From Eutypa lata (taxonomy: Eukaryota; Ascomycota; Sordariomycetes; Xylariales; Diatrypaceae), in assembly GCA_022661535.1 (NCBI GenBank), contig JAKULF010000011.1, forward strand, positions 2,480,001-2,544,000: a DNA stretch of 64,000 nt. Reading direction: 5' to 3'. Shown here one piece after another: positions 26,760-53,183 of this stretch (position 1 is the stretch's first letter; each line of letters opens with the position of its first letter). Made by a program: the position numbers and the translations under genes. Under the pieces are notes generated by a model that made no database searches, was not told the origin of the DNA, and saw only the letters and a list, made by a program, of their open reading frames with translations.

Positions 26760-28621
26760 CATCAAAAACACTACATTTTCCATTCACGTTTAAAATGTGA
26801 ATTTAAATCGTAAAATTATAAACTTTTCGGATTTATAATAAGGATTATAAACGGTTTATTTTTATATAAATTAATAAAATCTAACAAAATTCCTTTATAT
26901 AAAGTTTTAAACATAAAGATAACTGTAAAGTTTTACACCTTAAATTAAGCTTTTTTAACTTTTTAAATAACTTTACGAATCTTATATATATTTAAATGAT
27001 ATTTTATATTTACCTTTATTAAAATACTATTTATATACAACAACTTTAAAATCTTTAAAAAGTAATTTCGTTGTTGTTTTATTTATAAAAATATAAAAAT
27101 ATCTTTAAATTTTTAATATAATTACGTTATAACGTTATAACTTTATATAAATATAATTATATTTATATGTTTTATTATTATATAATACATTATACTTAAA
27201 GATATATAAATATAAAATCCGTTTATTTTTTCGATTTTTATATAAAAAGTTATTTAAATGTTAATAAATTAATAATTTTATATATACTTTATATATAAAA
27301 TTATTAAGTAAATAATATTTCATTTTAAATGTTATTTTAACCCTTTTAATTTAAATATTAACTTTTATAACTTTAGTTATTATTATATTTTAAGTTATAT
27401 TTTATATTAAAAAAATATATATTATTATAAATATTTTTATTAATTAATAAATTTATATAATTTTAATAATTTTATATAAAAAATAATAATACGTAAAAAA
27501 GTATTTTACTTTATATAAATATTTTTTAAAAATAAATAACAAATCGAATAAAATTCTTAAAAATAAATGATTTATAAATTTAAATAATTAAATAAAACAT
27601 TTAATATTTATATAAAATATATATTATGATATATATTATATTATAATTAATTAAATAAATTACATTATTTATATTTTATTATATATATTAATTTTATTAT
27701 AAAATAAAAACGTTATATAAATATTATAATTATAAATATATATATAATAAAAAAATTAAAATAAAACCTTTATGCTTTTATATATATTAATTAATAAACT
27801 TTAAAAGTAAATAAAATATTAAAATTAAAATTATAATATATAATTTTATTATAATTTTAAATTAAAATTAATAAAACATTTTAAAATAAAACTTAATATA
27901 ATATATAATAATAATTATTTTATTTTATTATTAAAATTAATTTTTTAATTATTTTATATATATTTCTTAAATATATTTCGTTTAAATTAAATATTTAAAA
28001 TATATTATAATACGTATTATATAAAATAAAAAGTATATTAATTATAAATATAATATTATAATAATAAAATAAAAAAACTTATATTTTTAATATTTTTATA
28101 AAATTAATTATATTAAAAAACGTTAAATACATTTTAAAAAAATAAATGCATTTTTAAAAGTAAATAAATATTTTAATATTTAAAACGTAATTAATTAAAA
28201 AGAATATATATAAATATATTTTCTTTTTAAATATAAATTATAATATATTATTATAAAGCTTTATATATTTAACGTTATTTTAAAAGTTTAACTTTTTATT
28301 ATTATATTATATATAATATTTATTTAAACGTTAAAAATTAAAAATAATTACTTTTAATTAAGAAAGATAATTTATTATTATAATGTAATTATTCGTATAT
28401 TTATATATAATTCCTTTAATTTATTATTAAACTTTAAAACTTAAATTAAAATATTTTAAAAATTAATTTTTAATTTTTAATTTTTATAATTTTTAATTAT
28501 TTTTTATTAATTATTTTAAAATTCTTTATATTATTATATAACATTATAAAACGTAAAATTATTATATTATATTTAAAAAGTATTTTATTTAATTAAATAT
28601 ATAATATAATATTTATTTATA

Positions 28622-28653
<32 letters not shown>

Positions 28654-31600
28654 ATTATATAATAAAGTATTTTTTAAAAAAAACTTTTCGTTAATAAATA
28701 TAATAATAAACTTAATATCGTTAATCGTTTATTATTTTAAATTTTATTTTATTTATTATTTATTAATTTATATATTAAATAAATTAATTAATTAAAGTTT
28801 AATTAACGAATAATATTAAAACTTTATTAATATTATAATTAAATTATTATTTTATTAATAAATTATTAATAAAATTTTAATTTTTTTTAACTTTTATACG
28901 AAATAATAAATATAATAAATAAATTAAAATTATATAAATCGTTTTAAAATAATATATTATAAAAAAATTAAATATAATAATATAATTTAATATGTATAAC
29001 TTTTTAATAACTTTATAATTTCTCTTTTTAATATCGTAATTTCGTTATTATCGTTATATTTTTTTTTAATTATATTTATAAATAATCGTCGTTATATATA
29101 ATTAAAGAAATTATCGTTACTTTTTTAATTTATAAATTATTTATTAAAGATAATATAAATATTAAAAAATAATTTATAAAGCGACGAAAAAGTTATATAA
29201 TAAATTCGTTATATTTATATATTCGTTTATTTTTTCGATAATAAATAAAAAATAAAATTATTATAAATAATTAAAAGCTTGATTTAATTTTTTTTTTAAA
29301 AAGCGCGAGCTTTTTTAATATTAATATAAACGTATTATATAATAATAAAATCGAAAATAAATTATCGTTTATTTTATTATTTTATTTTAAAATATTTTTT
29401 AAAATATAATTTATTTTTTAAAAATAACTTTTTTTCGTTATTAAATTAATATTTATATTATTTATTAATTTTTATTAAATATATTTAAATAAAGTTATAA
29501 TTTATTAATTTAAAGTTATTTTTAAATCGTTTTTAATAAATAATAATAAATTTTTAAAAATAATATATTTTAAAAAGTATTATTTTAAATAATAATAATA
29601 ATATAATAAAACGATTTTAATTACGTTTTTTTAATTATTTAACTTTTTTTTTATTTTAAAAAACTTTTAATATAATATTTTATATTTTAAAAGTTTACTT
29701 TTATTACGTTTTAAAGTTTTTATAATAATGTTTTTTTATTTTTTTTTAAATTAAACGTAAATAAAAACGTTATTATTAATATTAAATATTTAACGTTTAA
29801 ATTTTTATAAATATATTAATAATACGTTTTTTTATAATATTTTAAAAGATTCGAAAATATTTTTAAAAGATAATTATAATGTTAAAGTATATTTTAAAAT
29901 TTCGAATATTTTTTAAAATATTTTCGAATAATAAATTTTTTATTATATTTAATTATTATTTAATAATCGTTATTTTACTTTATAAAATATTATTTTTTTA
30001 ATTTTAAAAAAAATAAAAAAAAAATTTAATTAATAATTTATTAATGCATTTTTTTAAATATAATTTTAAGCTTTAATAAATAAGTTTTAATTTTTATAAA
30101 AGCATTTTAAATACATTAAAATTAAAAAGCGTTATTTTTATTTAATTATTATTTTTTTTAAAAATTAACTTTTTAAAAATTAAACTTTTTTTTTTCGTAT
30201 AACTTTTTATATCGTATTTTATTAATACGCTTTAATTTATTAATAAATATTAACATTAAACGATTAAAAAAAATACGAAAAATAAAAAAAAAACTTAAAA
30301 AAAATAATATTAAAATATTTATAATATTATAAAAAATTAAAATCTTTATAAATATAAAAGTTATTTATAAATAATAAACGATATTTCTTTATTATTATTA
30401 AGTTATTAACTTTTTTTTTATATTATTAATTTAATTTTTCTTTTAAATTAAATAAAAATAAATAATTAAATTTATTTTTAATTTTTTTTTTAAAAAACGA
30501 ATTTATTTTAAATAAATATTTATTTTAATAATAAAGTTATTAAAAAATATAATAATTATTAAAAAGGTTATTTTTAATAATTATAATAATAATATTTAAA
30601 TTAAATTAATTTTTTATTTAAATAATATAATTTTTTAAAAACGTTTTTATTAAAAAAATAATTATTAAAAATATTATTTTTCCTTTAATATTATCGATAT
30701 TTATAATAATATAATGTTTTTTATTATTAAAATTAAAAATTATTTTTTATATAATTTATTAATTAATAAAAAAATTAATAATTAATTAAAAATTTATCGT
30801 TTTTTTACGTTTTTAACGAATAATAATAACTTTTAACGCGTTTTATAAAAAAGTTATTAAAAAAATATTAAGTTTTTTTATTATTATAATAAACTTTTTA
30901 AATTATTTATTAATTTAATTAATTATTATTTTAATTAAATATTTTTTTATAAAAAAATATTTAATTTTAAATTTAAAAAACTTTAAATATTTTCGTTTTT
31001 ACGTAATAATTTAATTAATTAAAATTAATTTAATTAAAATAATACGTTATATATATAAATAATTAATATATATAATTAATATAATCGTCGTAAACGAAAA
31101 CGTATTATAATTATAAATTTAAATAAATTAATTAAAAATAATATCTTTAATATTTAAAAAAATTAATCGTAAATTTTTAAATATATATTTTAAAATAAAA
31201 AGCTTACGTTTTTAATATAAATAATATTTTTTTATAATTAAAGTTTTTATTTTAAATTTTATAATAATTATTATTATTAAAAATACGCATTACGTTTAAT
31301 ACGTTTAATAATAAATATAACGTTATTAAAGTTATTATTATATAATTTAATTAACTTTTTTAATAATATTAACGTTATATTTAAATATTATAATTAATTA
31401 ATCGTTTAAAAAAATTATATTATAAAATAATATTATAATTTTAAATTTTTATTTATAATTATATTTAATTATTTTTACGAAAATTAAAAAAATAAAAATT
31501 TATTAATAAAATAATAATTTAATTATAATATTAATAAATTTATAATATTATTTATTAATTAAATTTTAATTAATTAATTTATTTAATATATAAATTAATA

Positions 31601-31750
31601 TTTATTTATTTTTAAATATATTTATATAAATAAATCGTAAAAAAAATAATTCGTAAAAGAAAAGTTTATTTTATTTAAAAATTAAACGATATTAAAATAT
31701 ACGAAAGTTTAAGCGTTAATTATTAATTAATTTATATATAGCTTTTATAA
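26760..31750. mobile_element. AT-rich block, probably RIP-destroyed repeats
   Basis: Nearly 5 kb made almost only of A and T, with no frame longer than 60 codons on either strand. Borders are fairly sharp (about 26760 and 31750). By eye most remaining C residues are in CpG or CpT (AAG on the other strand); CpA and CpC are rare. That bias points to repeat-induced point mutation. No transposase or reverse-transcriptase motif is recoverable, so the original element is unknown. A centromere-like AT island is the alternative. Confidence 0.75.
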
Positions 31751-32394
31751 TACGCGTTTAATAGCTTTTGCACTTTTATCTTATTATAAGCTTATTAAAT
31801 TTATAAGGGTTATAAGGCTTAACTCATTAATTCTTAAGTAGGGTATAACAGGTAGTAAGCTTAATGCCATGCCGCTATATAAGGGCTTACCGGGGCTTTA
31901 AATACAGTGCTTAATAAGGGCCCGAAACTACTTTTTACGGTATTCGCTGTATGTGGGTCAGTTAATAATTGACGCCCGGACCTTCGTATGTATCAGCCAA
32001 TAACACCGTATATGTTGCCTCATCACTCAGGCCTCTCTCCGTAAGGTGGCTACGCCACCGCAGCTGCGGCGGTGCAGCTGCGCTGCGGCTCGTGATGCTG
32101 TACCAAATGTACCCACTAAACTCAATTCGGAAGCAGACCCACAAAAGCCACAAAGCCGACGTAGCTCGAGTTCTATCCCTGTCCTCTGATTGGTCGGAAT
32201 TTTAGTGGGAAATCGGTACTTAAAGCTACGGCGGTCTGAGAACTGAGGCAACGTATATGAACCAACAGAGCAGCACTGAACTATTGTAAGACTTTACACC
32301 TGATTGCAAAAGACATCATTGGATTTATCTCAGGATAGGCATCGGACATTTGCTGTTATATATAGAAAGAGTCTTTGAGAATATGCTGACCTCT
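31751..32394. other. transition region with GC-rich palindromes
   Basis: Base composition returns to normal within about 200 bases of the AT-rich block. A GC-rich palindromic cluster lies at 32045-32081. No gene was seen; short frames on both strands lack family features. Confidence 0.45.
32045..32081. repeat. cluster of GC-rich palindromes
   Basis: GGTGGC-TAC-GCCACC (32045-32059), the 12-bp perfect palindrome CCGCAGCTGCGG (32058-32069) nested in a CACCGC/GCGGTG stem (32056-32074), then GCAGCTGC. It may be the terminus of a DNA transposon or a hairpin; function unknown. Confidence 0.7.
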
Positions 32395-34095: not shown

Positions 34096-35059
34096 ATGGC
34101 AAACACCAACTTCTTCTTCTACTTCGCCCCGTCATGGGATTGGCCTCCAGAAGGGCCTATCCAGTTAGGCAATGTTCTAACGACAGTAAAAAGACCAGAA
34201 CAGCCGCTATACACCGCACCACCGCCAACATCTTCCCAGGTGTTTTCGTCAGAAAAGACTGAGGTTGAGTACTCGAAAGAAAAGCTTAGAGAGGGGAGTT
34301 TTTCGATCTTGACAACGTTCTTGAGTATCCTTGGTGTCGGAGTCGATGTTAGTGCCGATTTGGAGAACAGGTATGTGCACAGTGTGCTGGTTATCTGTAG
34401 TTCTGTCATGAAGCCCTATCGTCTACCTTGAGAACACCTTTGGGACAGGGTAGTTACTGATCCATGTTAATAGTGAGGGGGAGGTGTACTCCTTCAAACG
34501 GATAGAGACCACGCAGTTCATTCCGACAGAGGACTATATACAGAAATGCATCGAAACCGAGGCGGTGCGACGCTTCCTGGAAAGATGTCGTTACCGAAAG
34601 GCCGTTTACGTCATTACTGGTCTCAAGGTAGTTTACGGGGCGAAGGCCAAGTCGTATACGTCGCGAGCACACGGTGGTGCCGCCGCGGTCGCAGTCGACG
34701 GCACAATATGGAGTGGCGGTGCTGCTCCCGTCAGCGTTGAGCCTGGTGTCGAGGGTAGATTGGAGACTAGCAAGGGCACAGCGTGGGAAGGAAGTAGTGA
34801 CTTCATATTCGCTTTTCGAGTTCGCAAGGTCCATGTGAGTAAGCAGACTTCCTTAGTGGACCGTAACGAAGACTATACCAAGGGTGCAATGCTGGGAGAC
34901 AATTTTGAAGAGATTGCGAAAGACCTCCCAGAGCTCTCCATCTCGTCCCAAGAAGATCCAAGCCCGGAGGATGAAGGGTACAGCGAGGAGAATTTGAGGG
35001 AAGGGGAGACAGTAGTTGCTTGCGCGATTCCACGGGTTGATGATTCTGAGGTAGAATAA
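34096..35059 (+). CDS. fungal gasdermin-like pore-forming protein
   Basis: Proposed member of the fungal gasdermin family (RCD-1/HET-Q1), whose N-terminal domain inserts into the plasma membrane and kills the cell. Two exons, 34096-34370 and 34474-35059, give 286 residues, close to HET-Q1 length. The N-terminus is NFFFYFAPSWDWPPEGPI. Residues 66-92 (SFSILTTFLSILGVGVDVS) are hydrophobic. A conserved-looking RYRKAVYVITGLKVVYGAKA follows at 131-150, then a Gly/Ala-rich region at 159-200 and GSSDFIFAFRVRKVHVSK at 198-215. The tail after about 236 is strongly acidic and could be the cleavable inhibitory end. The key support is context: the next gene, convergent 148 bases away, encodes a subtilisin-like protease, the usual partner. 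Identification rests on remembered family patterns, not a search. No signal peptide is seen. Confidence 0.72.
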
Positions 35060-35207
35060 GGGGGAACACATCTTGGGAGACAACATTGCTAGTTGTAATT
35101 TCAATCGTAATTTCAGTCGTCGATATACGGAAGGTAGTTATGTCATGAATGTTCGTACTATCATACACGAATCCCATATTGCCGGGATAGAAATGTCACC
35201 TCCCTTT

Positions 35208-38205
35208 CTAACCCATTAGTAACTGACTAAGCGTTGCATCAATAAATTCCTTGTTTTTTCCAAAAAGGTTATCCTGGAACAAACTCAATGAGACATAATC
35301 GTAACCATCTCGAGTAACTGATTTCTGAGTCTTCTCTGCTACCTTCAGTAGTACATCTTTCATCTTAGATTGGCGCTTTAATAGGTGTGCTTGGTCCCCT
35401 AGATGGATCCTGGCGTATTGCAACAAAAATGCCGCAATACCTACCATAATGGGGGTCGCGTATGAGGTCCCAGATTTGCATTGGAGGCAGTCCTGGTTCA
35501 ATTTGGCGTCGCAGAGATGAACTGGCCATGCTGATTCGACTGATTCTCCTATGGTAGCTATATTGAGGTCATGGGTGAGCGCTGTAGGGCTAAACTTTGA
35601 ACGATTGCCATCTGAGTCAGTGGAATGGATGCAGATGACATGCGGGTCGCGAGCAGGGTATGCCCGGTCTAGATTTGCACCGCTATTAGAAGCAGCGGCA
35701 AACATCAGGACATTCTTCGAATGTGCATATAGAATCGCCTCTTCGAGTTTGTCATAACCTTCTATTTGCCTCGATGGATACCCAAAGGACATAGATATGA
35801 TATCGACACTCCAGTCATCCACAGCAAATCTTAAGGCCTGTTATGAGGGTTAGTTGACAAATTGCTGAGAGTCTTTATCGGAGGTCACAGTCATCATACT
35901 TCTGCAATTATTTCTGGGGAAGACGGTTCTTTCTCGGCAATCTTAGCTATATATAATTCGGCGTCGGGTGCGTATTCTGCAACTAAACTGGCGGTGAAAG
36001 TTCCATGTCCGTCAGAGTCATGAACGGCCTTTTTGAATCTTTTATTAACCCAATTGCGTTTGTGCTTGATCTGTCCAGTATCCAAAAGGTTGTGGGTTTC
36101 GTCGACCCCAGTGTCGAGGACCGCAATTTTCACAGGAGATTGGAGACGATGGTCTAGATGCGATTTGGCAAACTTCTCGTAGACCTTCATGTATTTAGTT
36201 TTCCACCCCAAATATTTTTGGAGCCTGCAGATTTGAAGTTAGAAGTTTAGACATTGGTAAGAGGGAAATGATTACACGTGAAACTTGGCACAATAAAAGA
36301 GGCAGATAGGTAGGAGTGAAGCTTAAAACCAAAGACTCACTGCACCTGGGAGTTAGGCCCCGATATTGCCTCATCATCGTAAAACTTCAGAGACGCGTGC
36401 TCTAATCCCGATGTGAGGGAAGGAGGGGGAGATTCTCCAATATTCTGATGCTGTTGAGGATTATGAACCAGGGATCCATCACTAGGCAGAGTGGGATATG
36501 CTTTTGAGTAAGCATCTAGGTCATGATCCTGGTTGACCTGCCACCAGCTAGCTACGTCCATCATATTGGCATATTCATCAAGCTCTTCAATTTTGAACAG
36601 TTTCATGGACCCATCGCGTAGATAATCCTCTAGTGGCCGAATGATCTCCTCATATACCTTAGGTCTTAGCACCTCATTATCAAACTGCTGGCCCCCCTCA
36701 CCCTCCCAAGACTCTGCATCCAGGCACTTTTCTATGGCATGGCAAAGTTGAGAGTCTCGAGGAATGTCATTCTGATATTCCTCAAAAACTGAGGCAACGT
36801 CTATGTGTCTCATACGACGTTCCTTGTCGTCTAGTATAACAACATTACGATTTCTCGCCAGTTCGTCGAACGGTGCCAGGAAGTATAGTTCCATTAAGAT
36901 AATGGCGAGGGTAACTAAGCTCGGAAAAGGGTGTTGAAAATCATCTGGGTCTAATTCAGTTGTGCTCAAATCGTCAGGATCGACATCATCTCTGTCAAGT
37001 GTGCTGAAGCTATAATCAGTAGAGGAATAGGTGGCTTCCTTCGTCTTCTCGGTGTCACAGAGTTCGGCTTGAATAAATGGTCTCAAAGGAATTCCGAAGG
37101 AAGTTGTTTGGAAAAATAATATTTTCGATGAATCCCACGTAGATTGGAGCCAGGTAGTGCCGTGAAGATGTAGAATTGCATAGCTTATTTGCACAGCAAG
37201 GATCCTCCTGATCTTCTCCGTAATATACGGCGCCCCTTTTGCGATGAGTCTCTGCAGCGACACAGGGGGCCTTTCCCTATCAATCTGAAAAGTACTCTTT
37301 TCAGATCGTAGTTTCCAAAGCTGACCACTTTCAACCTTTAATTCCAGACGCAGGGAAGGTGTTTCCTGCATTTTATGTATCTGCTCGCACATTCTTTTGA
37401 CCAACATTGGCTGGTATTTCGGTTGCTGAGGCACAGTCCTAGTAACTGTAGTTAAGGCAAATCGCACGACGGTATCTCTGACAGTACACACACGAACCTC
37501 CTGAGACATATGCTGTAAGGATAGAAACATATGGAACTCGTTGTTCTCAAGTGAGTCAGGGTCAACCGAGTCAGGATTCCGGTATGTGCCTAGGCAAAGC
37601 TTGGCATCAAATTCGTTAGGATGGCACTCGCATTTAGTGCAACATGTGAGAGCGTCGAATACGGACTGTGCTGCACTCCATACGGTATAAGATGGTTCAG
37701 CCCTAATTTCCGTCGCTGTAGACCAGTCTTCACTGTTTTCGCGGTAGTGAGAGATGACATCATCTTCCCATCTCATAATATCTTGCTGATAACGCGACCC
37801 AGTAACCTCTTCGAGAAGTAGGCATTGATCGATGAATTTAAATCGAACATCCCCGCTATGGTGTTTTAAGTCTTTCCAGCGCTGATTAAGAGCATGTTGT
37901 TTTGGATATGTGGTTGTTAACTCCCCATGTACTCCAAGTGTTCTATATGGAGCAACAATACTCTCAAAAAGATGCAGAATTCGACCTATTAGCTCATGGC
38001 CAGGGCCTAGAGTAGTTTGGATGCGATTTATATGGTCCGAAACAAAGATGCAATGCGCGGTAAGCTGACGATATGAGACAACGAGCTTCACATCTGTTTC
38101 TTGGTCCTTGAGGAGCAGAGAGATCTGCAGGATTGATTTGGATGTTCTCCACGCCAATTTCACATTCTCATGGTCGTAGGACTTGATGCCGAAGCACTCG
38201 GCCAT
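35208..38205 (-). CDS. subtilisin-like protease with large N-terminal regulatory region
   Basis: Intracellular S8 serine protease, the candidate activator of the adjacent gasdermin-like protein. Three exons (38205-36341, 36224-35900, 35837-35208) join cleanly into 939 residues from ATG 38205. Residues 1-600 match the DUF7580-like helical region often placed before NLR-type or protease domains in fungi. It includes RRILAVQISYAILHLHGTTW and a charged stretch near 390-420. The C-terminal subtilase has all catalytic positions: Asp in AVLDTGVDETH (about 659), His in DSDGHGTFTAS (about 695), the oxyanion Asn in AAASNSGAN (about 781) and Ser in SGTSYATP (about 855). There is no signal peptide and no propeptide, unlike secreted subtilases, which fits a cytoplasmic sensor-protease. 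It differs from many relatives in lacking C-terminal repeats such as ankyrin or TPR. Confidence 0.85.
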
Positions 38206-38927
38206 GATAGGGGTCTAAGTATGTAACATTACCCCGCCAGTACTCTCCAAGGCAGATTGTTGGACATAAAACCACAGCACTCCGGATGGGTTGCGGATGA
38301 AACCAAGCCGCCAGAATCAGCTAAGATAAGCTAGGTACTTTTAATGCCCGTTGAAAATAGTTAGTCGTATTATCCACTAATTGTTTTATAGGAGAACGTA
38401 TTGGTGTGGAACAAGAACGCCTGATGAAATCATCTCCTGGATCCAGGCCCCGCCAATAAAACCCCAGGTAACATCCAGCCTCGAGAAAACGACGCAGGAG
38501 CACGTGCAGCGATGAGTTACGTAGTACAACTGGTGAATACTTACCTACATACGTACTTGTATGAAACGTCTCCTAGGCCGCTCTCCAGATAAGGTCACAT
38601 GACCTAGTGGCCCCACTTACTACTCAAACGTGGGGCGCCTAACTACCTAATGTAGGTACTGCCCAAAAATACCGGTCGCTAAGGTATGTATGTAGATCTA
38701 GCTTAGAACAACAACAATGTTGCAAAGAACCACCGAATTGACACGCAAGTTCTTTGACACATAGAGCTCGTGTTTGACCTAGTATCAAGTGTAATGAGTA
38801 GCTAGACGAAACCATTCATTTGGGTTACATTATATTTCTGAGGATCCTACTACTAGGTGCACTTTGGACGAGGCTCATACTTTTGTGGTCAAGCCTGACA
38901 TATCTTCCATCGCCACCACGCTACGCG
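38206..38927. promoter_or_regulatory. divergent promoter region, protease and zinc-finger/reductase genes
   Basis: 722 bases separate the start codons of two divergent genes, so both promoters must lie here. I saw no strong TATA box or repeated operator-like motif. Shared regulation is possible but not shown by sequence. Confidence 0.45.
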
Positions 38928-41900
38928 ATGTCTGACAGAAGCGAAAGAGAAAGCGCAATATCGCAACACCAGGAAACTATAGCTGGTATCGCGGGACAAT
39001 GCCTCCACTCATTTCTGCAATGCCTTCAATCAGCGGCTGTCGTCCACCCGCGGGAGTTTTCGCTGGTGGAAGACCAGCTTGCCAGGTTCTCTACTTGGAC
39101 AGCGAATACCGGCGTCTTCGCTCAAGGGAAATCTTCCATGGTAAGCTCTCGGGGCCCTTTATTTCCCTTTTGAGCCTGTATCCAGCCCTCTTTGTCTCTG
39201 GTAATATTACCATTTGAGTGTTGCCCAGACTCTAGACAGTGCTGCAAGCTCCCGAAACATACTAAGAAGGGTATTTTACTAACTTCGAGGGTTGGGAAGG
39301 ATCACCGCCTTAGAGAGGCACACGATATCCACAGTGCTGTTGCAGCTCTATTAGGATCTGTGGTCATTAACACCCAACATTGTACGTGCATTTTATGTTT
39401 GTTCATCTGGTCATGAGTCATGCTAGTATTGGTATTTTTCCTAAAACAGCAAATACCTAAGAGAGTCTTATTTTGTTTTGCGAAATTTTGTTTCATTGTG
39501 TACTAGAATGCAAACATCTCTAGTCATGAGAATAATCATTCTTCCCGCGCCGGCTACTTAAGTTGAATATCGACGCTAATCTGGTTATCCTTGCTGTAGG
39601 TTCGGAAATTCTAGATGACATCGCAGAATCCAGGCAGAATAAAGCTGAAGACAGCTCGAGGGCCACATATGACGATTTAACGGACTCTTTGGACACTATC
39701 GCTTATGAGATACGTCTGCTAAACATAATCTCAGACACTATTCGAAGAGCTGGGAAGGAAGCACAATGTCCCAAGGAGATGAGATCATACCGTATTCAAG
39801 ATGATGAGGGGAACGATGCAGAGCCATTGTTGCACCAAATATTTGCCAACTTCATTGTTGGACGATTTCCAAGTATTCGAGATAGTCTTCGAGAACGTCT
39901 CACCTCCTCGATGGTGCTACGACACAAGAGAATTTTATACAACAGGTCTCGCTACAAAAACACTCCCATAAAGATTAGGAAGACGATATCACAACCAGAC
40001 ATCAAGCTCCCCCTGGCTCCAGGTCAAAATGCATTTGGAATAGAACCACAAACTGTAGAAGCCCTGTCATCCACGAACATGGCCCATGCCGGGAGCATCC
40101 GGGAGTCCTTCGCAGTTAGTGCCCCCACCGTAACCACAGAAGATTGCAGAAAGGCTTCGACTCCATCTATGATTTCAGCTACCAAGACTGTACCTCTAAG
40201 CAATCACGAAGATGTCGTTTTCCCCCCACCCCCAGACGGAAAAATCCGGCGAAGATACAAGAAAATCAAAAGGCAACGAGTGCAGGAGCACCATGCCTAT
40301 GTCAAATCGATCTTCAGTCCTTCTCAGTACGAAAAGTATCTTACTCTGGAGTCTCCTACATCTGTCCCTCACACGAAAGTCCTCGAGTTGGTTGGCATCA
40401 CTACAGAATTATATCAGAAGGCTTTCGATGATAATATGAAGCTCCAGACTACCTTGGAATTAGATTGGATTAACTGTAGCAAAGCGGTGGCAGAAGCTAT
40501 GTGTCCATTTTGTTTCTACTCACTCCCCGGTTTACTGGTAGGCGATGAAAAGAAATGGCGGTATGTAGTCAGTAATTTCTTTGGCATAGCCTCGAAGGAG
40601 ATGACCAAGCAAATGCTCAGCGTGTACTAATTATATTCTAGGGACCATGTGATGGACGACCTCGATGCGTACGTGTGTCTATTCGACGATTGTGACAACC
40701 CGGAGGAACTATATAACCATAGTCGCAATTGGTTGAAACACATGAGTAAGCATACCTTGCGTTGGCGATGCAAAGCAAAATCCCATGGCATACTTTCTTT
40801 TGTCACGGGGGGAGAGTATGTAGAACATATGAAAGAGAAGCATCCCCGGGCTTTCAGCGAACCACAGCTCCGCGTGCTAGCTAAATATCATGGTCGTTCT
40901 ATCAAACCCATGTTTGGACTCTGCCCAATCTGTGGTAACAATGAGGTCACCGGCAATCTAGAAGACCATATCATAGGTCACTTACGGTCTCTTGCATTGA
41001 AGTCCCTTCCTCCCTATGATGATGGGGGATCAGAGGATTCTTCAAGCGATCAGGGCTGCTCGAATACTTCGAAACCCATGAGCAGGTCCACGATCCAGGA
41101 AGATCCGGCGAGATATGCAGAATTAGCTTTCGAGGATGTCGGTGATGCTTCGATGTGGGGATATAATGGCGACCCTGTTGTAACAAGCCCACGCCTCCAA
41201 CTTTCCACCCCACCAGAAATTGAAGGTGTTGATGAGAGCGAAGGGTCATTGTTGTGGCACAAAGATCCTTCAATAGATCTTATCGAGCTTTCGTTATTCG
41301 ATGGAATATCGACCAAAGATCGGAGAATGTTTGAATGGGGGTTTCTCACTGAAAGGACTGATAGACGGCTTGAATCCGCTGAAAACGACCCAACTATTCA
41401 GTCCATCCTGGAGTACAACATCTCAAACAATACGAAAAGAGAAGCTCTAGAATCACAGCATCACAACTCGGGGACACAGGATCAATCAACATCAACACGC
41501 GTCACAGCGCAAACGATCGATAATCTGAGAATGGAGATAGTAAGGAAGTCATCAGGGGACCTCGAACTTCTGAGGAAAAACGGAAATACTAATGGTCCAA
41601 TTTTACTTGTTGGCGCTAGTGTTGGTGTCGCTCCATTTCGCAGCTTTCTAAAACGAAGATTGGAAAATCTTACCAACGACAATACTATTTGGGTGCTTCG
41701 GAATACTGATGACTCGATCATTAACGAGATCTATAGCAATCAGTGGGGTATCCCCGAGGATAGACTGAAGAATATTATCCAGGATCTCGCTGTCTCTATG
41801 AAACCCATTCAAGAACTGGTGCGTACGAAGGCCCACATGGTATGGTATATTATCAACTCGGTCAACGGTTGTATTTGGACTTGCAGTGATTCTCGGAGAA

Positions 41901-42295
41901 GGAAAGGCTCTATTGAGAAGGCTCTCGTTGATGTGGCCATCAAGCAAGGAAACCTAAGGGAGGAGGAGGCTCAGACGTTCTGGTCGTTGAAGGCAGAAAT
42001 AGGGCAATATATTTTTCACGCCCCTAGGCAGGAATCCATCTTGCCTTCGATTACAATGGCCGACGAAATTGAAACCGATGAGGATAAATCCGACGAAACC
42101 GAAACCGATGAGACTCATTCCGACGATACTGAACCTGCCGACAACGACGTCACCTGCCGGTATATGAATGTGACAGATGCGTTATACCACTGCTGTCGTT
42201 GTGGTTACGAAAGCCATTTTTTGTACAATGATGACAAAATCGATTGTCCCCAATGCTTCCACAGAAACGAGACCGGCTGCTGTGTCGAGGTTTGA
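38928..42295 (+). CDS. zinc-finger protein fused to a reductase NADP-binding module
   Basis: Four exons (38928-39140, 39300-39381, 39600-40560, 40642-42295) give 969 residues. Two of the introns show TACTAAC-like branch points. The N-terminal region (QCLHSFLQCLQ, YDDLTDSLDTIAYEIRLLN, MCPFCFYSLPG, YVCLFDDCDNPEELY, GLCPICGNNEV, HIIGHLRSLAL) matches the common fungal protein class with degenerate C2H2-like fingers (acuF-like). Around 735-890 the chain reads GPILLVGASVGVAPFRSFL, then a Trp-Val segment and EEEAQTFWSLKAEIGQYIF. That pattern is the C-terminal NADP-binding half of cytochrome P450 reductase-type flavoproteins. The FMN and FAD domains are absent, and the usual CGSS-GMG motif has become CSDSRRRKGS. 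After an acidic ETDE/SDDTE repeat the C-terminus has CCRCGYES and CPQC, a zinc ribbon. Function is unknown. Confidence 0.75.
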
Positions 42296-44482
42296 GATTG
42301 CCATCGATAAACGGATTTAAAGAGAGTAGATTGCTCACTTTAACCACATCGTGATTAAGGAAGATGGCAAACACGACCCTTTTAAGGGCTCAATAAGTCT
42401 GTACATTATAACTCTTTTATAGATATTAACACTAGATAAGAACGAGGAATGAATCCATATTAAAAACCTGGCCCGAAAGGCAAGGATGTTCACATCACAA
42501 CATACCTCTTGGCGCGACTAGAGTGTCATTTCGAAAATTTGAGCCTCATTATTGTGGTTTATATAACCGCACTCGGAAAAATGCAAGCACGAAGGTTATA
42601 CAGACATTTGCGAAGGCTAACTTAACATAGGCTATTAACGGAAGTACCCATGAGTCGTAATGCGACAGATGGATTGGCTTGCCATTTACTTTTATGAAAA
42701 TCTTATTGTTACATTTATAGAACGGTAGTTTGAAAAGAAACTTCAGGTTAATGGCTTTTATCGGCGGAAGTATGGACGACTGGGACGGCCAAATAAAAGC
42801 ATCAAGCGAGACGTCTAGAGTCTAAACACGACCGCATGCTCGAGAAAAAGAGCCTGCGCTAATCGATGTCTGCATAAACCGATGCAATAAACAACTGGAG
42901 ATTATGATGGTGCCCTAAGACCTTGTTTCTTTTCTTCTTTTCCTCTTTTTTCCTCCTCCGGGGCGTTGCCTTTTTTCCCTTCCGCTTTGGATTCTACAAC
43001 TCAAGTAGGGTTCTCTTGACTATGTCAAACGTCCACTATAGCCAAATAACAATCTAATTGTCGTTATATACTTGCTGCGTGATGACAATCTACAGGCCGC
43101 CTCGTCACACTCTCTGTAGAATGACTTCTGCTACTCATGAGGTAGCTGACAAGAATGTAGGCCTTGCATTACCAATTTATGTCTTGTCATATTGCATTCT
43201 GCGCATTTCCCAGGCTTCCCACAGCCCTTGTTCAACGTTATAACTCCCGGGCACTCCTTGAATACGTTCATTTATGGTACCTAATCCACGAATCATTACG
43301 TTGAATCACCAAGTACTTACACATGTTATTTTGGGATATAGCTGTACGAAGTAGAGTCACATCAACCAGCAGATAGGCTAACCCATGAAGGGTTTGCGAG
43401 AGGGTTTGGGTAGGTTAAAGAGAGCGGGGTAGTGCTCTTGGCGGGCATAAATGTGAATAGCTGTAGGTAATACAGCATTAAGCCACTGCATGAGAGCCCC
43501 GGTTATGACGGTCAATCTCACCAGATCAGTGGACTGGATATAATGTATGTTCTTCTTCAAAAGACTGTGCGACCTTTTTTCTATGTCGGTTATATGACTT
43601 GCTGTGGTATTGACTGAGAGAGACACCCTATATAGATTATAGTATAGTGCCCCCATTGCCCTATTCCTGAACTGCTACCACAATACCACACACGAGAGAT
43701 CAAAAATAGAATTACGAAGTAGGGACGGAGACTAGAAAATGATCTTAAATGGAATCGAGATCGCGAATACTGCATGCCTCTTGCCGAACTGCTTAAAATA
43801 CTCGCATTATATATGGTCGCGATGGCGGTGGGGAAGGGAAGAAATCGACAGGGGAGCAGGTGTAAGTAATCCTACCAGTACTACTTAGCCGTCCTTAGTC
43901 ATGCTGTCATGCAAGTCAGACGAACAAATGCAACTCAAGACTGCACCCTCTTCTTCAATTCGTCCGAAAAGACCAACATGCGTCCGACCTTTGGGGGCTA
44001 TCCGAACCAAATGTGTCTGGACACCAAGTTCATTGGTCCGAAGGACCTTTTCTCCGAACACGATGGGTATCGTTATAGTGGAAGGGCTCGCTGGTCTAGG
44101 CGCTTCCGTGCACTTCGCCTCCATGTTGGCGAAAGCAACACACCCTTCGAAGATGTTATGGCTGTTGCAGATAATGGTGACATCGTATGATGAGCCACAC
44201 TTTACTTCGGCTGTTGGACCCCCCACCAACACGCGCGGCGCCTGCAAGCTAAGAGCGATCTGACTCTGATTTTGGCTAGATCCCTCCCTCGATCGCAAAT
44301 GTCTAAGTTCGCTTACATTTGTGTTCAGATCTTGTTTTCTCGATAGCTGACATCAAAACTCGATGGTCAATCGAAGCTGAGATATCTAACCCGAGATATC
44401 TAACCCGAAATATCTAACCCGAGATATCTAACCCGAGATGTTTGATTGATGTTGTGGTTGATGTTAGAGTTAGGCGTACAAT
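42296..44482. other. intergenic region of 2.2 kb
   Basis: No convincing gene. A 137-codon minus-strand frame (43885-44298) and overlapping plus-strand frames at 43.9-44.3 kb are noted; they have no recognisable motif, and which strand (if any) is coding cannot be decided. A 14-bp tandem repeat lies at 44379-44434. Confidence 0.45.
44379..44434 (+). repeat. 14-bp tandem repeat, four copies, before a start codon
   Basis: The unit GAGATATCTAACCC is repeated four times (one copy has an A for G) and followed by a partial fifth copy. It sits 50-105 bases upstream of the DUF3433 protein ATG. The reverse complement contains GGGTTAG, telomere-like. It could be a promoter-binding array or a slippage product. 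Confidence 0.85.
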
Positions 44483-47400
44483 ATGCATCGCGCGGCGACC
44501 GGTTGGGTGCGGCGAGCCGGAGGTAATTTTGCGGAGGTGCCGCAGACGGATGCCGAGGAAGATCGCAGCCAGTCGTCACGGCAGTCGTCCAGGTTGTCGT
44601 CGCACGAGAAGCGGACGTCGGATCAGTTCCGGCAACATGTCCAGAACCTTCTCCAACAAGGAAACATCGAGGACGGCCTAGAGGCGCAAAGCCTCCATAG
44701 CTCACCAGCGTTGTCAGATCACACGTTAGTCAGTGGAGATTATCTCGAAGTTCACGGCAATGAATACCGCGAGGTGGATATCAGCAACTATGCTGAATAC
44801 GGGGACTATTACGGACCCCAGCCTACCAATGTTTCGCCTACGAAGAGCTTAAAGGCCGGGCTGGGAATTGAGGTTCGCCACATGTCGACCGGCTCTGACC
44901 TAACAATTGACGAGGGACTCTTTATGGACGATCCCCTAGCCGACATCAGTTACAAGGGATCCGAGGGAAATATTGAGCAGCAGGTACCAGGTGAAACTCC
45001 GAATTACAAGCCGTTGATCCTGAAAAAGCGATTCTTGCTCGTCCTCTTAGTGACCTTAGTCATCTTGTTGGCCCTTACAGAGCTTACGGTGCACTTGCTA
45101 CCGGAAGATACAAATGGCCTTCTGAATGAAGACGATGATAACTCGACCGAATCACAGCTTCGCAGTCGCTCATTGGATTATGTAGAGAAGTTTGACGGCG
45201 AATGGTCGTTTTCGCTGCTTCGGGAACGCAAAAACCATCCAGGGGGCGGTAACGGGGTCATCAATGCTTCTCCCACAATATCCTCGGTTGAAGTTCCTGT
45301 TACTGTTTCTACCGATATTCCCACTGGCGCGACACCGACGACGACTTCACAAATTAAGGTGACTACTACTACTGGACTGACAAAAGAACCGACGAGCACG
45401 CAGAATAGTATGACGATTCTACCCATATCAAACACGCCAAGTACAACAACCACAATAATAGAGGTTCCTACTACCCCACAGGCCCCTCCTACGACAAGCG
45501 TTCCTATCACTACAGATATCACAACTAGTATCACGTCAACTAGTCCGTCGGCTCCGTCTACCATAGACACAACAACTACTCAGAAGGAAGAGACAACAAA
45601 GCATTCTACCCCGTCGGGACCCATGAATATCCAGACTACCCTTCCTAGTCCATCTCCTACAGAACCTGACCAGGGGGGGACAGAGCCGACTCCAACCAGC
45701 ACCCCAATTGCCACCAGCGCACCAACGGAGACACCACCAACGGAAACACCACCAACGGAAACACCACCAACAGAGAGACCAACAATTCAGACACATACCA
45801 ACACTCCCGGTCCTCAACCATCCGATGATCCAAAGACCACTACAGATCCTCAAGTCACCAATACCAAACCCCCGGGTCAGAATCCGGGAACCACAGGAGA
45901 TGATCCCACCAAAACTAAGCCTCCAGTAGAGACACATTCTCCTATACCTACTACCCCTGAGAAGCCCCCGGAACATATTTCAACTACAGAACACACGGCA
46001 GTACCTGGACCCTCTGACATATTAAGCATTTTACCCATTGATATCCCGACAACTTCGCATGAAATGACTATCCTACCAATTGATATATCGACCGCTTCAG
46101 ATATATTTACCATTTTACCCATTGACACAGGAATGCCACCTCCGACACCATCATCAGACCCTCCAGCACCCACAAGCCTTCCTCCTACGAGTCAGCCACC
46201 ACCAGGCCCGTCGCCAGATCCACCAACACCTACAAGCCATCATAGTACAGATTTACCCCCCACAGGCTTACCAACACAACCACCTCATACTCTCCCTACA
46301 GAAACACCAACGAATCGGCCCACAGACCTGCCACCAAAGACATCCCCTGTGGAAAAGCCTTCCCCAGATCAGCCTGCTCAGACGCAGACTCCCCTACAAC
46401 CTACCAAAGGAGACCCCACCAAGGGACAACCCACACATGATGAACCTACTCAGGGGCAACCAACAGCAACATTACCTACCTCCACTGAAATCAGCTCCAT
46501 AACAACACCTCCACCTCCGCCTACAAGCAAGACAACCATAGTCCCTGTGCCACAATCTCCCAAAGTGTCACCTTCAGTGGCAAAATCCCCATCCCCGGAG
46601 TCCCCATCCCCGGAGTCCCCATCCCTAGAGTCCCCGTCCCCAACCTCGGCACCGTCATCACCACCAAGCTCTCCTCATGTTGCCAATACCTTGTTGAGCA
46701 CCCTAACTCTGTCTCCAACAAGTGTTGTAACCAAGTCTTCAAGCCAAACAAGTAGCATTCTTTCAACGTCAAAGCCTGGCCTGGTTCACATACAAGATCC
46801 ATCATCGGATGTGTCTGGATTTTCCACAAAAACCTCCCAATCCACCCCCAATAAGATACAGGATGAAGATGAGAATCCATTCTCCACATTAGTACCTTTC
46901 ACCACATTAATCCTGACTGAAGCCACATCTACGCGACACCCATCCCCAACGCCCACATTGGATCCTTCGGCATCAGACTACCGTAACTTCACAGACGAGT
47001 TTGGTCTTGGGCAGAAATTCCTCGAGTCGGCGTTAACATTCTACACGCCTGTAGATGGCGGTGGACATACCAAAGCTCCGTTCTGGGCCCTGCAGAACGT
47101 GATCACGGCAGTAGAGACGGATGCTCGTGGGAAGCCCACGAAGACGCAGACCCAGGCGATACTCTACGGTGCACGGACGACTGTACTCACGGATTACCAA
47201 GGGGTCCCTACCAAAACAGTGACTTACTACGTCATTCCGTACACGACGACACTGCGCGACGGAAATGGTAAGGCGACAGCCACGAGGACGGGCGAGGTTT
47301 CCAAAGTACCCGTGACGAATACCCTGACGGACGAAAACGGCGTAGCAACGAGTACTGTCACGGATTTAATACCCATGTCGTCGTCCACCGTCGTTCGTGT

Positions 47401-48967
47401 CGTGACGGCGACTCCTACCGCATCGGCTAATTCTAGTAGTATCGAACAGAAGACTGCCATGCGCGTTACGGATGCGCAATACTTTGGTGTCCTTATGCTG
47501 CCCACGTTACTTGCGATCGCCTTAGCCATCCCGATCCGCATACTCGATCGGACCGCTAAGCTGTACCAACCATTCCATGCCATGACGTTACCCAACGGTG
47601 CTCCCGCCTCCGAATCGCTATGTCTTGAAACGAGCGGGGCGCGGAGTCTCCTCACTGCCTTCTACTCCGCCATGAATGGACAGTATCTACTCATTTTGAC
47701 CGGGGTATTAGTTCTAGCTAGTGCCGTTCTTATCCCCTTGAGCGGTGAAGTGATGCGCATTGCATTCCGAGGTCCCAACTGTATTATGTTAGACGGGAAC
47801 CCTATCAACTGCGCCATGGGTGTTGCGGTCCTTCCCCACATAGCGAGGGCTGTGGTAGGGGTTCTCGCGTTCATGACGGTCCTCATATGCATTACCGCCG
47901 CCGTACTCTGGAGGTGGATGACGGGCGTTGCTCGGCCGTGGAGTCTCAACTACATGGCGCACCTGGCTACCAACGACGACATCCGGGTGCTATTACAGCG
48001 CGCTCGGAAGAAGGATGGAAAGGTTACAGCGGATAGAATCAACAAACAATTCAGGGATAAGTCATTCGTCCTCGATTATTGGAAGGACAACGCGACACTC
48101 AAATACGGGATCCTCGTCTTGCCCACGATAGAACAACCCCTGAAAAGGGAGAGGAAATTCGTAACCTTCGGTGAACCACCCAAGCAGAGCAGCGCGAAAC
48201 CTCAGGCGATGCCCTTCTTCCTCCTCACGTTTGCCGGCAGGCTGATTTTCCTCTCGTTCCTGTTAGCAGTGTTGATTTTCGTTCTGGTATACCACGTCAC
48301 GGGCGAACGGCGCATAGGTTGGATCATGGTTGGCGAATCGCTCGGCGTTCGGATTTTGTTTACGGTTCTTGGGGTCTTGATTACCTTTGCTTGGGAGTCT
48401 TTCTTTTACGGTAAGTGTGGCAGTCAAGTCCTCATTATGTTCTTCCGTGACGAGTCGGTCTTTTTTGCATGCCCCCCCGGCCAAGTACTTAACTAACACG
48501 TCTCTACATTTGTAGCTGTCGTATTCCTTAGTCCCTTCCGATTCCTAAATAGGAAGAGGTCTTCCTACAATCGCGAAGCACAACTCATGACGCCTCCGAC
48601 CAACGTCTTCAGCGGCGTATGGTACGCGCTCGTCCGCCGACCCCGAGACGTGTATCTCGGCGTCGTAGCGATAGCCGGGATCTTCGCCCAGCTTCTCCCT
48701 CTGCTTCTAAGCAATGTTCCGTTCGAGGCACTCCACTCCTACCCGGGCTTTGAGCCCTCCACCTGGATCTCGGTCATGATCCTCTGCGTGATGATGTTCG
48801 TCATTATCGGGTCTTTCTTGATAAGGTGGCCGCATATGCCCATCGATCCAACGACGGTAGCTGGAGCTATGCATTACGCGACAGACCCAACCGGGTCGTC
48901 AAGTGTGACGGGGACGAGTCCTTCGGCTGGGCTACTGCATGGGGGAGTTAATACGGGTCTTGTGTAG
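44483..48967 (+). CDS. DUF3433-family multi-pass membrane protein with STP-rich ectodomain
   Basis: Large fungal integral membrane protein of unknown role, probably at the plasma membrane. Two exons (44483-48410, 48516-48967) give 1459 residues. There is a cytosolic N-terminal tail of about 190 residues and a first hydrophobic helix (FLLVLLVTLVILLALTELTV). About 600 residues of Ser/Thr/Pro-rich, repeat-containing sequence follow (for example tandem TETPPTETPPTE, and SPSPESPSPESPSLESPSP), probably O-mannosylated and cell-wall facing. The C-terminal part holds the family core with about eight further helices, including DAQYFGVLMLPTLLAIALAI and TAAVLWRWMTG. The ectodomain and pairs of helices are typical of DUF3433 proteins. 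The intron, GTAAGT to TGTAG, restores frame with SPFRFLNRKR. No known reaction. Confidence 0.82.
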
Positions 48968-50748: not shown

Positions 50749-52692
50749 TCAAAACAGAGTAAAATATTCAAACTTCCCCACACTTTCTCTTACCTCCAAT
50801 ATTTCCCACAGAGTCTCTATTACGTCCTTACCAGTGAAAATACTCTGGGGGTCGGTAAATGTAATTGTTTCTTTCGTTGCCATAGGTCCTACTATATGAT
50901 CGGAATAGCCTCCATCTGGTGTGGCAGGGCCAATATATCGATATTGTGGCACATCTGACTCTAGACCAAACTCTGATAGCCGAAGTAGCAGTGGCGCCCA
51001 TGCACCCTCGACGGCGACCAAAATATCTCCATAGCAGGCCGTCTCAGGTACTTGCCATGGGAGAAAGGGGGAGCTGAGAACCCTTGACCATTTCTCCGAA
51101 ACTGACGAGGGTGTGGACTTGTCTTGTCCCAGGATGTGATATAGAGCAGATGTCAAAATTACTGGTTTGAACAATAGGTCTATTGACCAGCCAGTTTCCG
51201 CGGTCCTTTCTCCTTTTTCTCCTCCTATGAGCGAACCCACCCGAATCCCCCTGAGTCGAAGACCCCCATAGGGAACTTCCTCAAAGGAGTCAGGAAAGGT
51301 TGGGCTTAGACAAATCGGAAATACCCCCGTTATCTTTTCCATGACGAGGTTCCCAAGTAGGCGCCGCCAGTCAGGTGTCCAGGACGGTAGTCTCAAATCC
51401 TCATGCTCATCAGTAGGTGCTGGTCTGTAAATCAAGTCTCTAAAATTGAGCAACGTGAGGCACTGGTCACGCTTGATAAGGTACATAGCTAGCTTGCGGA
51501 ACAGAACAGCCACCGGTTGCTGGTACGATATGACGAGAGGATAATAAGTGTCCATGTTTCCGTTCTCGGATTGGAGCCCGACCGTGGTCATACCTAGGAT
51601 TCCGTAGATTCGGTCGTGGGCAAACGAGTAATTACATCCCTGCGACCGACGAAGAACATTGACGATATCCCACGCGTGGTAGTCACTTGTCAAATAGCGT
51701 GGGTTCTGTTTATCCGACGTTGGGACTAGCTGAAGGTTTTGACCACTGTTGATTAGACGTTTATCAATCTCTTCCATTTTTGTCACGTTTGTAGTCAGCA
51801 TCCGCATATCGGATGGGGGGAATTTCTTATGATTGAGTTTCAACATGTGGTTGCACCTCGCAAATGCACCCCAGCTGAAAGATACGTCACCGCAGTGAAC
51901 GAGTATATTGCGTGCGGCCCAGACTTCCTGTATAACCCAGACCCTCCCGAACCAAGGGCGGGACACAAGATCATGTAACCCAGAGAGCAGCTTTCTCCTA
52001 TGATAACAGGGCACCGGGGTTATGAAAGTAGATTTATTTAACCTTGTTATTGCCTCAAAAGGTGTGCTCTCAATTATCGAGGTTGGGTCGCCAGTGGATG
52101 TCATATCGGCCAAGACCTGCAAGAATAGGCATGCGAGTCTTGTGTAGCCACTATGCTCTTCGAGCCAAACATGCACGCAATCGGCCATTCTGTAGATGTT
52201 GATCATCAAAGGAATCTGCAAAGACCTTTCTAAATCGTCATATTGGTTGATACAAATAGCATCGATCCATATATGCACCGACTGGCTGGGAGATCGGAGG
52301 TCTTGCAGGGCTCGGTAGGCCTCGATGGTGATAGGTAAGTCCTCATCGTTGCAGCGTAGTAGCCAGCGCGGTCTTTGGTCCAGACCCCAACAGTATGATA
52401 GGGCATCATATTGGACTCGGGTCGACCCCTCGTTTTCCGACATCGACGGGGCCGCAATGTCGATAATTTTAAGGGATGCAATTAAGGGCTCACCGAATGT
52501 ACCGGGATGAAGACATACTATGCGGGTTTGGTCTTTATGCAGCTTTGTATATATTATTTTTGCGGCATCCGCAGGATTGACATCCTCGCAGAGCATCTCG
52601 TGCCCCGGGGAGTTGTCGACATCTTTGACGGGTTGAAATGGACAACTGGGGAGGCAAGGATTTTTACTCCACCAGTTGATTTTTCCCCCCAT
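50749..52692 (-). CDS. HET-domain protein
   Basis: Heterokaryon-incompatibility type protein; HET domains are linked to TIR-like folds and regulated cell death after non-self recognition. One exon of 647 residues from the ATG at 52692. The longer open frame upstream starts with a TTG codon and is not needed. HET signature blocks: VQYDALSYCWGLDQRP (about 94-109), VHIWIDAICINQYDDLERSL (about 136-155) and IYRMADCVHVWLEEHSG (about 160-176). RPWFGRVWVIQEVW, a usual fourth block, lies near 250. No NACHT, WD40 or ankyrin partner domain follows; the C-terminal 350 residues resemble the common HET-only (HET-6-like) architecture. It lies 8-16 kb from the gasdermin/protease genes; functional connection unproven. 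Confidence 0.9.
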   Translation of the reverse strand: MGGKINWWSKNPCLPSCPFQPVKDVDNSPGHEMLCEDVNPADAAKIIYTKLHKDQTRIVCLHPGTFGEPLIASLKIIDIAAPSMSENEGSTRVQYDALSYCWGLDQRPRWLLRCNDEDLPITIEAYRALQDLRSPSQSVHIWIDAICINQYDDLERSLQIPLMINIYRMADCVHVWLEEHSGYTRLACLFLQVLADMTSTGDPTSIIESTPFEAITRLNKSTFITPVPCYHRRKLLSGLHDLVSRPWFGRVWVIQEVWAARNILVHCGDVSFSWGAFARCNHMLKLNHKKFPPSDMRMLTTNVTKMEEIDKRLINSGQNLQLVPTSDKQNPRYLTSDYHAWDIVNVLRRSQGCNYSFAHDRIYGILGMTTVGLQSENGNMDTYYPLVISYQQPVAVLFRKLAMYLIKRDQCLTLLNFRDLIYRPAPTDEHEDLRLPSWTPDWRRLLGNLVMEKITGVFPICLSPTFPDSFEEVPYGGLRLRGIRVGSLIGGEKGERTAETGWSIDLLFKPVILTSALYHILGQDKSTPSSVSEKWSRVLSSPFLPWQVPETACYGDILVAVEGAWAPLLLRLSEFGLESDVPQYRYIGPATPDGGYSDHIVGPMATKETITFTDPQSIFTGKDVIETLWEILEVRESVGKFEYFTLF

Positions 52693-53183
52693 ATCTTCGT
52701 TCTTTATGTTCACAGTGTGTTGGTTATATTTTTGCAACCTCTGCGTGTCGGATATTGATAGCGTAATAAAGTGAGCGCTAATAACTAATTATCTTTTGTC
52801 CATATGGCGCAGTGACTTATTCACTTATGTAACACTGCGGTTAGTGCATTATAATGGTGGATGATTCTTAGAAAAATTAAATAGAGAATGATGGGTGATA
52901 ATTCTAAGACAGCCTTGGGATCGGTTATGCGGGGCTTTGAGTTACCAACATATAAGTCAAGCGTTTAAACGTCACGTCGAATATAAGCCGGCACAGGGTA
53001 TTTTGATTCGCCGTATCACATGAAGCCAAGGCGAGCGGATGCACCCAGGATTAAAGAGCAAACAATAACCGACCCATATTCAGTGTTCTATTCTACACTA
53101 TATACAATCCTATCCATTTCCTAAAGAGCGAGCTGTCTATTCAACCGACCACATTTCGTTCTCTTATCTTAAGAGTAATGGAT
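52693..53183. other. intergenic region
   Basis: About 490 bases: 5' flank of the HET gene and 3' flank of the CoA-transferase gene. No gene or regulatory motif recognised. Confidence 0.5.

Follow-up and report, generated by a model that had tools for sequence, protein, structure and literature searches.

Fungal gasdermin systems and the locus in Eutypa lata

Fungal gasdermin genes are reported to be clustered with protease genes in >80 % of cases, and with S8 (subtilisin-like) protease genes in ~63 % (PMC12881547, PMC10197012). In HET-Q1/HET-Q2 of Podospora anserina, a 278-residue gasdermin with a short C-terminal tail has an S8 protease as its presumed activator (PMC10989679); this protease, HET-Q2, is 388 residues long, and het-Q1 and het-Q2 are idiomorphs of one locus (PMC10989679, PMC12881547). 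RCD-1 of Neurospora crassa is activated by an antagonistic allele and not by a protease (PMC12881547). Which stimuli activate fungal death sensors is counted among the major open questions by a 2025 review (PMC12881547). The locus described here lies in 64,000 nt of Eutypa lata DNA (contig JAKULF010000011.1, positions 2,480,001 to 2,544,000, forward strand; ‘the window’ hereafter is this whole stretch) and comprises a gasdermin gene, a gene for an S8 protease that carries a DUF7580 part, and a third gene whose product joins a C2H2-finger platform to a variable C-terminus. This trio is well supported as a conserved arrangement. The interpretation favoured here, which we hold to be slightly better than even, is a three-gene module for regulated cell death with the C2H2 protein as sensor, a pseudokinase–protease as switch and the gasdermin as executioner.

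At 286 residues, the window gasdermin resembles HET-Q1 in length; it too has a short C-terminal tail, and its presumed activator is again an S8 protease. However, the protease has 939 residues and a DUF7580 part, a third gene is present, and both genes of the pair occur in one haplotype. Because they stand side by side in one assembly and are not idiomorphs, the pair is not HET-Q1/HET-Q2 proper; the label of that type, applied in an earlier note on this DNA, holds for the kind of pair and not for a copy of the system. RCD-1 chains, at 244–257 residues, lack the tail of the window gasdermin. The clusters of fungal gasdermins (fGSDMs) with Q2L proteases are alike in placing a gasdermin beside an S8 protease, and kinase-like fusions are mentioned for them; the published scheme puts the repeats on the protease, whereas here repeats or baits sit on the separate C2H2 protein. 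The gasdermin–protease pairing is already known, and what is new is the trio, in which a probably kinase-like switch is joined by a putative sensor that is modular and encoded by its own gene.

The gasdermin–protease pair

The earlier note had described a gene for a 286-residue protein of gasdermin type, tail to tail with a subtilase gene. Both genes are located as claimed (Table 1), and their stops are separated by 148 bases (35060-35207). An alternative in-frame join of the gasdermin intron would give 294 residues. The profile search that the note had proposed gave matches to RCD-1-1 (4.7e-17, against 8.4e-9 in a single-sequence search) and to HET-Q1 (4.7e-6 over profile positions 13-227), and the predicted structure of a homologue agrees in fold; by profile and model the small protein is a fungal gasdermin. 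It has the anatomy of a protease-activated gasdermin, with a 55-residue acidic tail of putative inhibitory role (residues 232-286, net charge -15) behind a low-confidence linker. In the homologue model the predicted local distance difference test score (pLDDT) is <50 at residues 218-242, after which tail strands follow at 246-278. Tail charge is -5 or lower in 63 of the 66 gasdermin rows that have the core-end motif (66 of 80 rows).

Catalytic Asp659, His695 and Ser855 and oxyanion Asn781 are all present in the protease, in agreement with an S8 fold. In an alignment of the window protease with 119 listed homologues (P0112-P0230), Asp is kept in 120/120 rows and Asn in 119/120; among the rows that have a residue at the position, His is kept in 119/119 and Ser in 117/118. 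The first 622 residues match one database entry with 618 identities. No repeat domain was found in the window protease itself by domain scan, unlike in the third proteins.

The DUF7580 domain is probably kinase-like, judging from profile comparison. At E<=10, a profile built without the most kinase-like paralogue (L034) retrieved no more than two PDB chains; these are kinases, with weak scores (0.018, 0.31); with L034 included the best kinase match was 3.1e-4, and L034 alone matched Pkinase at 4.1e-6, under the curated cut-off. Fold searches with the protease were dominated by subtilisins, the DUF7580 part not being separable, and a viral library gave a kinase at E 0.057. A loop resembling W-L-Q-(S/P)-x-W, found in most of the 120 protease rows, was placed by eye at the HRD position, given the kinase assignment; on that assignment, the domain would probably be catalytically dead. 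At two further loci, L032 and L035, a Pkinase domain (2.9e-23, 3.4e-31) and DUF7580 lie within one protein.

Synteny in other fungi was read from locus tags and contig sizes in protein listings, with only the window’s own genome searched; the listing, tallied by hand, held 110 gasdermin matches and the best 120 of 225 protease matches. The pair is conserved, a point that the earlier note had wanted checked: of the 14 assemblies that list both genes with positional tags, 12 number them consecutively (QQX98, AK830, PFICI, JDV02, Hte, G7Y89, DL767, MRS44, FSARC, ACHAPJ, DL766 and PG985), the exceptions being DNG_04526/02418 and G7Z17_g6987/g3625. For G7Z17_g3625, DUF7580, S8 and gasdermin are predicted within a single chain (P0112), and P0110, predicted in another fungus, joins a gasdermin end to a C2H2-platform piece; both are probably merged gene models and were taken solely as signs of adjacency. 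All three gasdermin loci found in the own genome, which has 54.5 Mb on 29 contigs, adjoin an S8 gene and have both DUF7580–S8 and C2H2 neighbours. The two outside the window (C11:1149893-1150573 and C5:1830375-1831166) each lie beside a DUF7580–S8 gene; at C11 this gene converges on the gasdermin gene, whereas the C5 pair is head to head. Because of these 3/3 own loci and 12/14 assemblies, the pairing exceeds chance, and a chance association was rejected. The gasdermin–protease pair is real and is a further member of the fGSDM–S8 cluster type.

The third gene

The two-gene description of the earlier note stands as regards the pair and is incomplete otherwise: it overlooked the helical N-terminus and the DUF7580 part of the protease and a conserved third gene outside 34096..38205. 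The third gene is the likelier sensor. Its model was chosen among five possible first acceptors as the one with the product closest to the family. Thirty-six homologues align with the platform at 36-50 % identity, several of them along a portion of it. The underlying search gave 38 matches, including the window’s own protein and one enzyme that matches the C-terminal reductase-like lobe only; 35 were compared for synteny, and PF26082 (zf-C2H2_AcuF) is listed for 9 of the 38. Beside HET, this family is among the most overdispersed of Neurospora crassa (PMC13412767).

Third-gene and protease tags lie within two of each other in 7 of 8 comparable assemblies (G7Y89, AK830, PFICI, JDV02, G7Z17, N7481, N7451), and the order gasdermin–protease–third is kept in all four assemblies in which all three are tagged (AK830, G7Y89, PFICI, JDV02). 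For at least 17 of the 35 third-protein matches, a listed protease is on an equally long contig. No description of the third gene was found in the literature on fungal gasdermins, DUF7580 and PF26082, where a prior mention is possible; reviews, in the parts available, mention two- or three-gene clusters without naming such a gene.

The C-terminal lobe of the window protein matches sulfite reductase 1ddg (9.5e-7), is 48.6 % identical over 142 residues to the enzyme P0268 and 48 % identical to an enzyme frame of 634 codons at another place in the same genome, and occurs in 0/36 platform homologues compared. A merged gene model behind this C-terminus was rejected, as fingers and lobe share one 554-codon frame; merged models were likewise rejected for L021, L023 and L030 and are possible for some models of other species. 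A working reductase is unlikely: the NADPH lobe alone was found, no FAD-binding part was recognised, and the RSGEGRYVQ stretch of two intact relatives, which we take to be NADPH-binding, is lost. A scan of the pieces of the window protein gave no NB-ARC or NACHT domain.

Turnover of the C-termini

The C-termini of the other third proteins are diverse. At C11, ankyrin repeats (Ank_2 1.4e-66) occupy one 788-codon frame; at C5, NB-ARC (6.1e-7) and TPR (2.2e-63) lie in the open frame that comes after the platform, and a GTAAGT-donor intron would connect the two. Further C2H2 proteins of the own genome end in ULD_2 (L021), ARID with FHA (L023) or extra zinc fingers (L030); L025 has a PH-like domain just above the cut-off in the next frame, and L027 gave ubiquitin and BAG matches, both sub-threshold. 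A C-terminal Pfam domain is present in 12 of the 17 third proteins scanned from other species: annexin, WD40, PP1-type phosphatase, EF-hand, PAH with a PAN3-type finger, ankyrin, TPR, Myb with PHD, and DUFs.

When the window protein and 35 homologues were compared pairwise, dropping pairs with <250 aligned platform residues, half or more of the shorter C-terminus was shared in 25/28 pairs at platform identity >=60 %, 6/53 at 50-60 %, 4/285 at 40-50 % and 0/201 under 40 %. The C-terminus therefore changes faster than the platform. This pattern is what one would expect of a receptor with exchangeable baits, though it does not prove one. The layout is that of an integrated decoy, a constant platform with exchangeable domains that resemble host proteins, ligand recognition being putative. 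Plant and fungal NOD-like receptors (NLRs) with integrated domains likewise combine a constant signalling part with exchangeable host-like domains; unlike in NLRs, the constant part here is the C2H2 platform, and a nucleotide-binding domain was seen beside it only at C5.

Genome-wide pairing of C2H2 platforms with DUF7580

DUF7580 gave 22 matches at 21 loci of the own genome, and the C2H2 platform is found at 20 loci, three matches to lobe or tail alone having been dropped. Thirteen of the 21 DUF7580 loci lie <=5 kb from a platform locus, while 20,000 random placements, with the genome treated as one piece, gave at most three such pairs; for L033, counted among the 13, the platform matches are weak (3.6e-5, 6.8e-4). 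Judged from positions of open reading frames and not from full gene models, 11 pairs stand directly head to head; L014 has the gasdermin in between, and L023 is on the same strand. Ten of the 13 pairs are without gasdermin, and in eight of these ten (not L023 and L033) the DUF7580 side starts MSGxEVxG-like. The helical N-termini had no significant PDB match (best 0.081), and a HeLo search of them gave only a sub-threshold match at L024 (0.013). In a DUF7580 tree of 33 rows, which has long branches, the 17 S8-linked rows, 14 of them from the window-protein search, are separated from the rest by a branch with support 92/90 (96 % of bootstraps).

Like MLKL and the fungal HeLo/HELL kinase-like proteins, DUF7580 proteins have a helical N-terminus and then a domain that is probably kinase-like. 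The paralogue L037 (C11:368500-378400) has HeLo (5.4e-9, above cut-off) and DUF7580 (3.6e-6) in one frame, an MLKL-like layout, and has no C2H2 neighbour within the fetched 10 kb. Unlike these systems, proteins of the gasdermin-linked branch carry an S8 protease at their C-terminal end, and their kinase-likeness is weakly supported. At L039 (C10:5634000-5643900), a C2H2-platform gene lies near exons with weak similarity to S8 (best 1.4e-5), and neither DUF7580 nor gasdermin was matched there; it is perhaps a decayed relative of the trio.

The pairing bears directly on the alternative that survives best, a plain two-gene cluster of HET-Q1/HET-Q2 type in which the protease itself senses, by way of its kinase-like part, and the C2H2 gene, although a frequent neighbour, has a separate function. 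Gasdermin-linked proteases are treated as multidomain sensors in reviews, some as kinase-like fusions (PMC12881547), and 7/20 C2H2 loci have no DUF7580 neighbour. Nevertheless, this alternative appears unlikely given the 13/21 adjacency, the ten pairs in which it holds without any gasdermin, the gene order kept in 4/4 fully tagged assemblies, and repeat domains that are carried by third proteins and were not seen in the protease.

Proposed mechanism and its alternatives

In the three-gene module as proposed, the acidic, partly structured C-terminal tail would keep the gasdermin silent, and the S8 protease would be restrained within its larger protein by the probably dead kinase-like DUF7580 part and the helical N-terminus. 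The variable C-terminus of the C2H2-platform protein, here a degenerate reductase piece, would meet or mimic a watched target; the platform would then act on the DUF7580 part, and the freed protease may cut the gasdermin linker after about residue 231. The released core would form membrane pores and kill the hyphal compartment.

A wider and more tentative proposal, somewhat short of even, is that C2H2-platform proteins are an as yet undescribed class of fungal immune receptors whose baits can be exchanged. Each would be coupled, in head-to-head arrangement, to a kinase-like DUF7580 switch, and the switch would drive one of two outputs: a membrane-active N-terminus that is helical and possibly HeLo-like, or an S8 protease by which the gasdermin next to it is set off. 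If so, one sensor chassis would feed necroptosis-like and pyroptosis-like pathways, linking two routes of fungal cell death. A modular sensor with a gene of its own beside protease–gasdermin pairs would also make the stimulus question testable, since the swapped C-terminal domains are candidate baits.

Several points weigh against the sensor–switch–executioner module. Contact between C2H2 protein and DUF7580, gasdermin cleavage and killing are predicted steps. The gasdermin core (residues 1-231) has a net charge of -1, against a family median of +5. The kinase-likeness of DUF7580 depends on the weak scores given above, which fold searches did not settle, and the NB-ARC join at C5 is one of 19 in-frame GT-AG options. 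No convincing C-terminal Pfam domain was found at L024, L028, L029 and L033 or in 5/17 third proteins scanned from other species. Tags of Neonectria punicea (QQX98) put no third gene beside the pair; at 8/21 DUF7580 loci the 10 kb fetched contained no C2H2 platform, and the C2H2 loci mentioned above as unpaired (two of the seven fetched) have no DUF7580 match <=5 kb.

The locus might instead serve allorecognition (het), its natural trigger being strain fusion and not infection or damage, a reading that is compatible with the three genes acting as sensor, switch and executioner. Both characterised fungal gasdermin systems act in allorecognition (PMC12881547), and a HET-domain gene lies ~8.5 kb beyond the third gene. 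Against this, alignment with the gasdermin of E. lata UCREL1 gave 3 mismatches and 262 identities over 265 residues, with one 21-residue gap, although one further strain is too few to reveal balanced alleles; we regard this origin of the trigger as improbable. Least credible is a C2H2 transcription factor controlling the head-to-head protease gene, to which the C2H2-like fingers, the common upstream region of 722 bp and the ARID, Myb or PHD domains of some copies would be suited, since C-terminal domains differ from copy to copy and most of the others are protein-interaction or enzyme-derived (WD40, ankyrin, TPR, annexin, PP1, reductase lobe, NB-ARC).

Features of the window

Table 1. Positions of the trio, its parts and neighbouring features within the window
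Feature	Position	Strand	Details
Fungal gasdermin gene	34096..35059	+	Exons 34096-34370, 34474-35059; one GT-AG intron; 286 aa
Gasdermin linker and acidic C-terminal tail	34787..35056	+	Residues ~197-286
Gasdermin tail after presumed cut region	34892-35056	+	Residues 232-286; presumed cut after residue 231
Protease gene	35208..38205	-	Exons 38205-36341, 36224-35900, 35837-35208; 939 aa
Protease layout			Helical N-terminus ~1-170; DUF7580 174-530; S8 subtilase 653-900
Upstream region common to protease (-) and third gene (+)	38206..38927	.	722 bp, head to head
Third gene	38928..42295	+	Exons 38928-39140, 39300-39381, 39600-40560, 40642-42295; 969 aa
Third protein layout			C2H2 platform ~1-560, then variable C-terminus (reductase lobe and zinc-ribbon-like tail)
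Reductase-like piece (FNR NADPH lobe)	41597..42025	+	Third-protein residues ~735-877
Two adjoining DUF3433 frames	44474-48964	+	9.6e-17; 2.5e-5 (under cut-off); next to third gene
HET-domain frame	50752-52788	-	E 1.4e-25
Low-G+C block	26800-31900		~5 kb; 5-10 % G+C in 500-base windows

Rfam gave no match in the window at gathering scores. The low-G+C block, which lies between the upstream genes and the gasdermin gene, is possibly a heavily mutated repeat.

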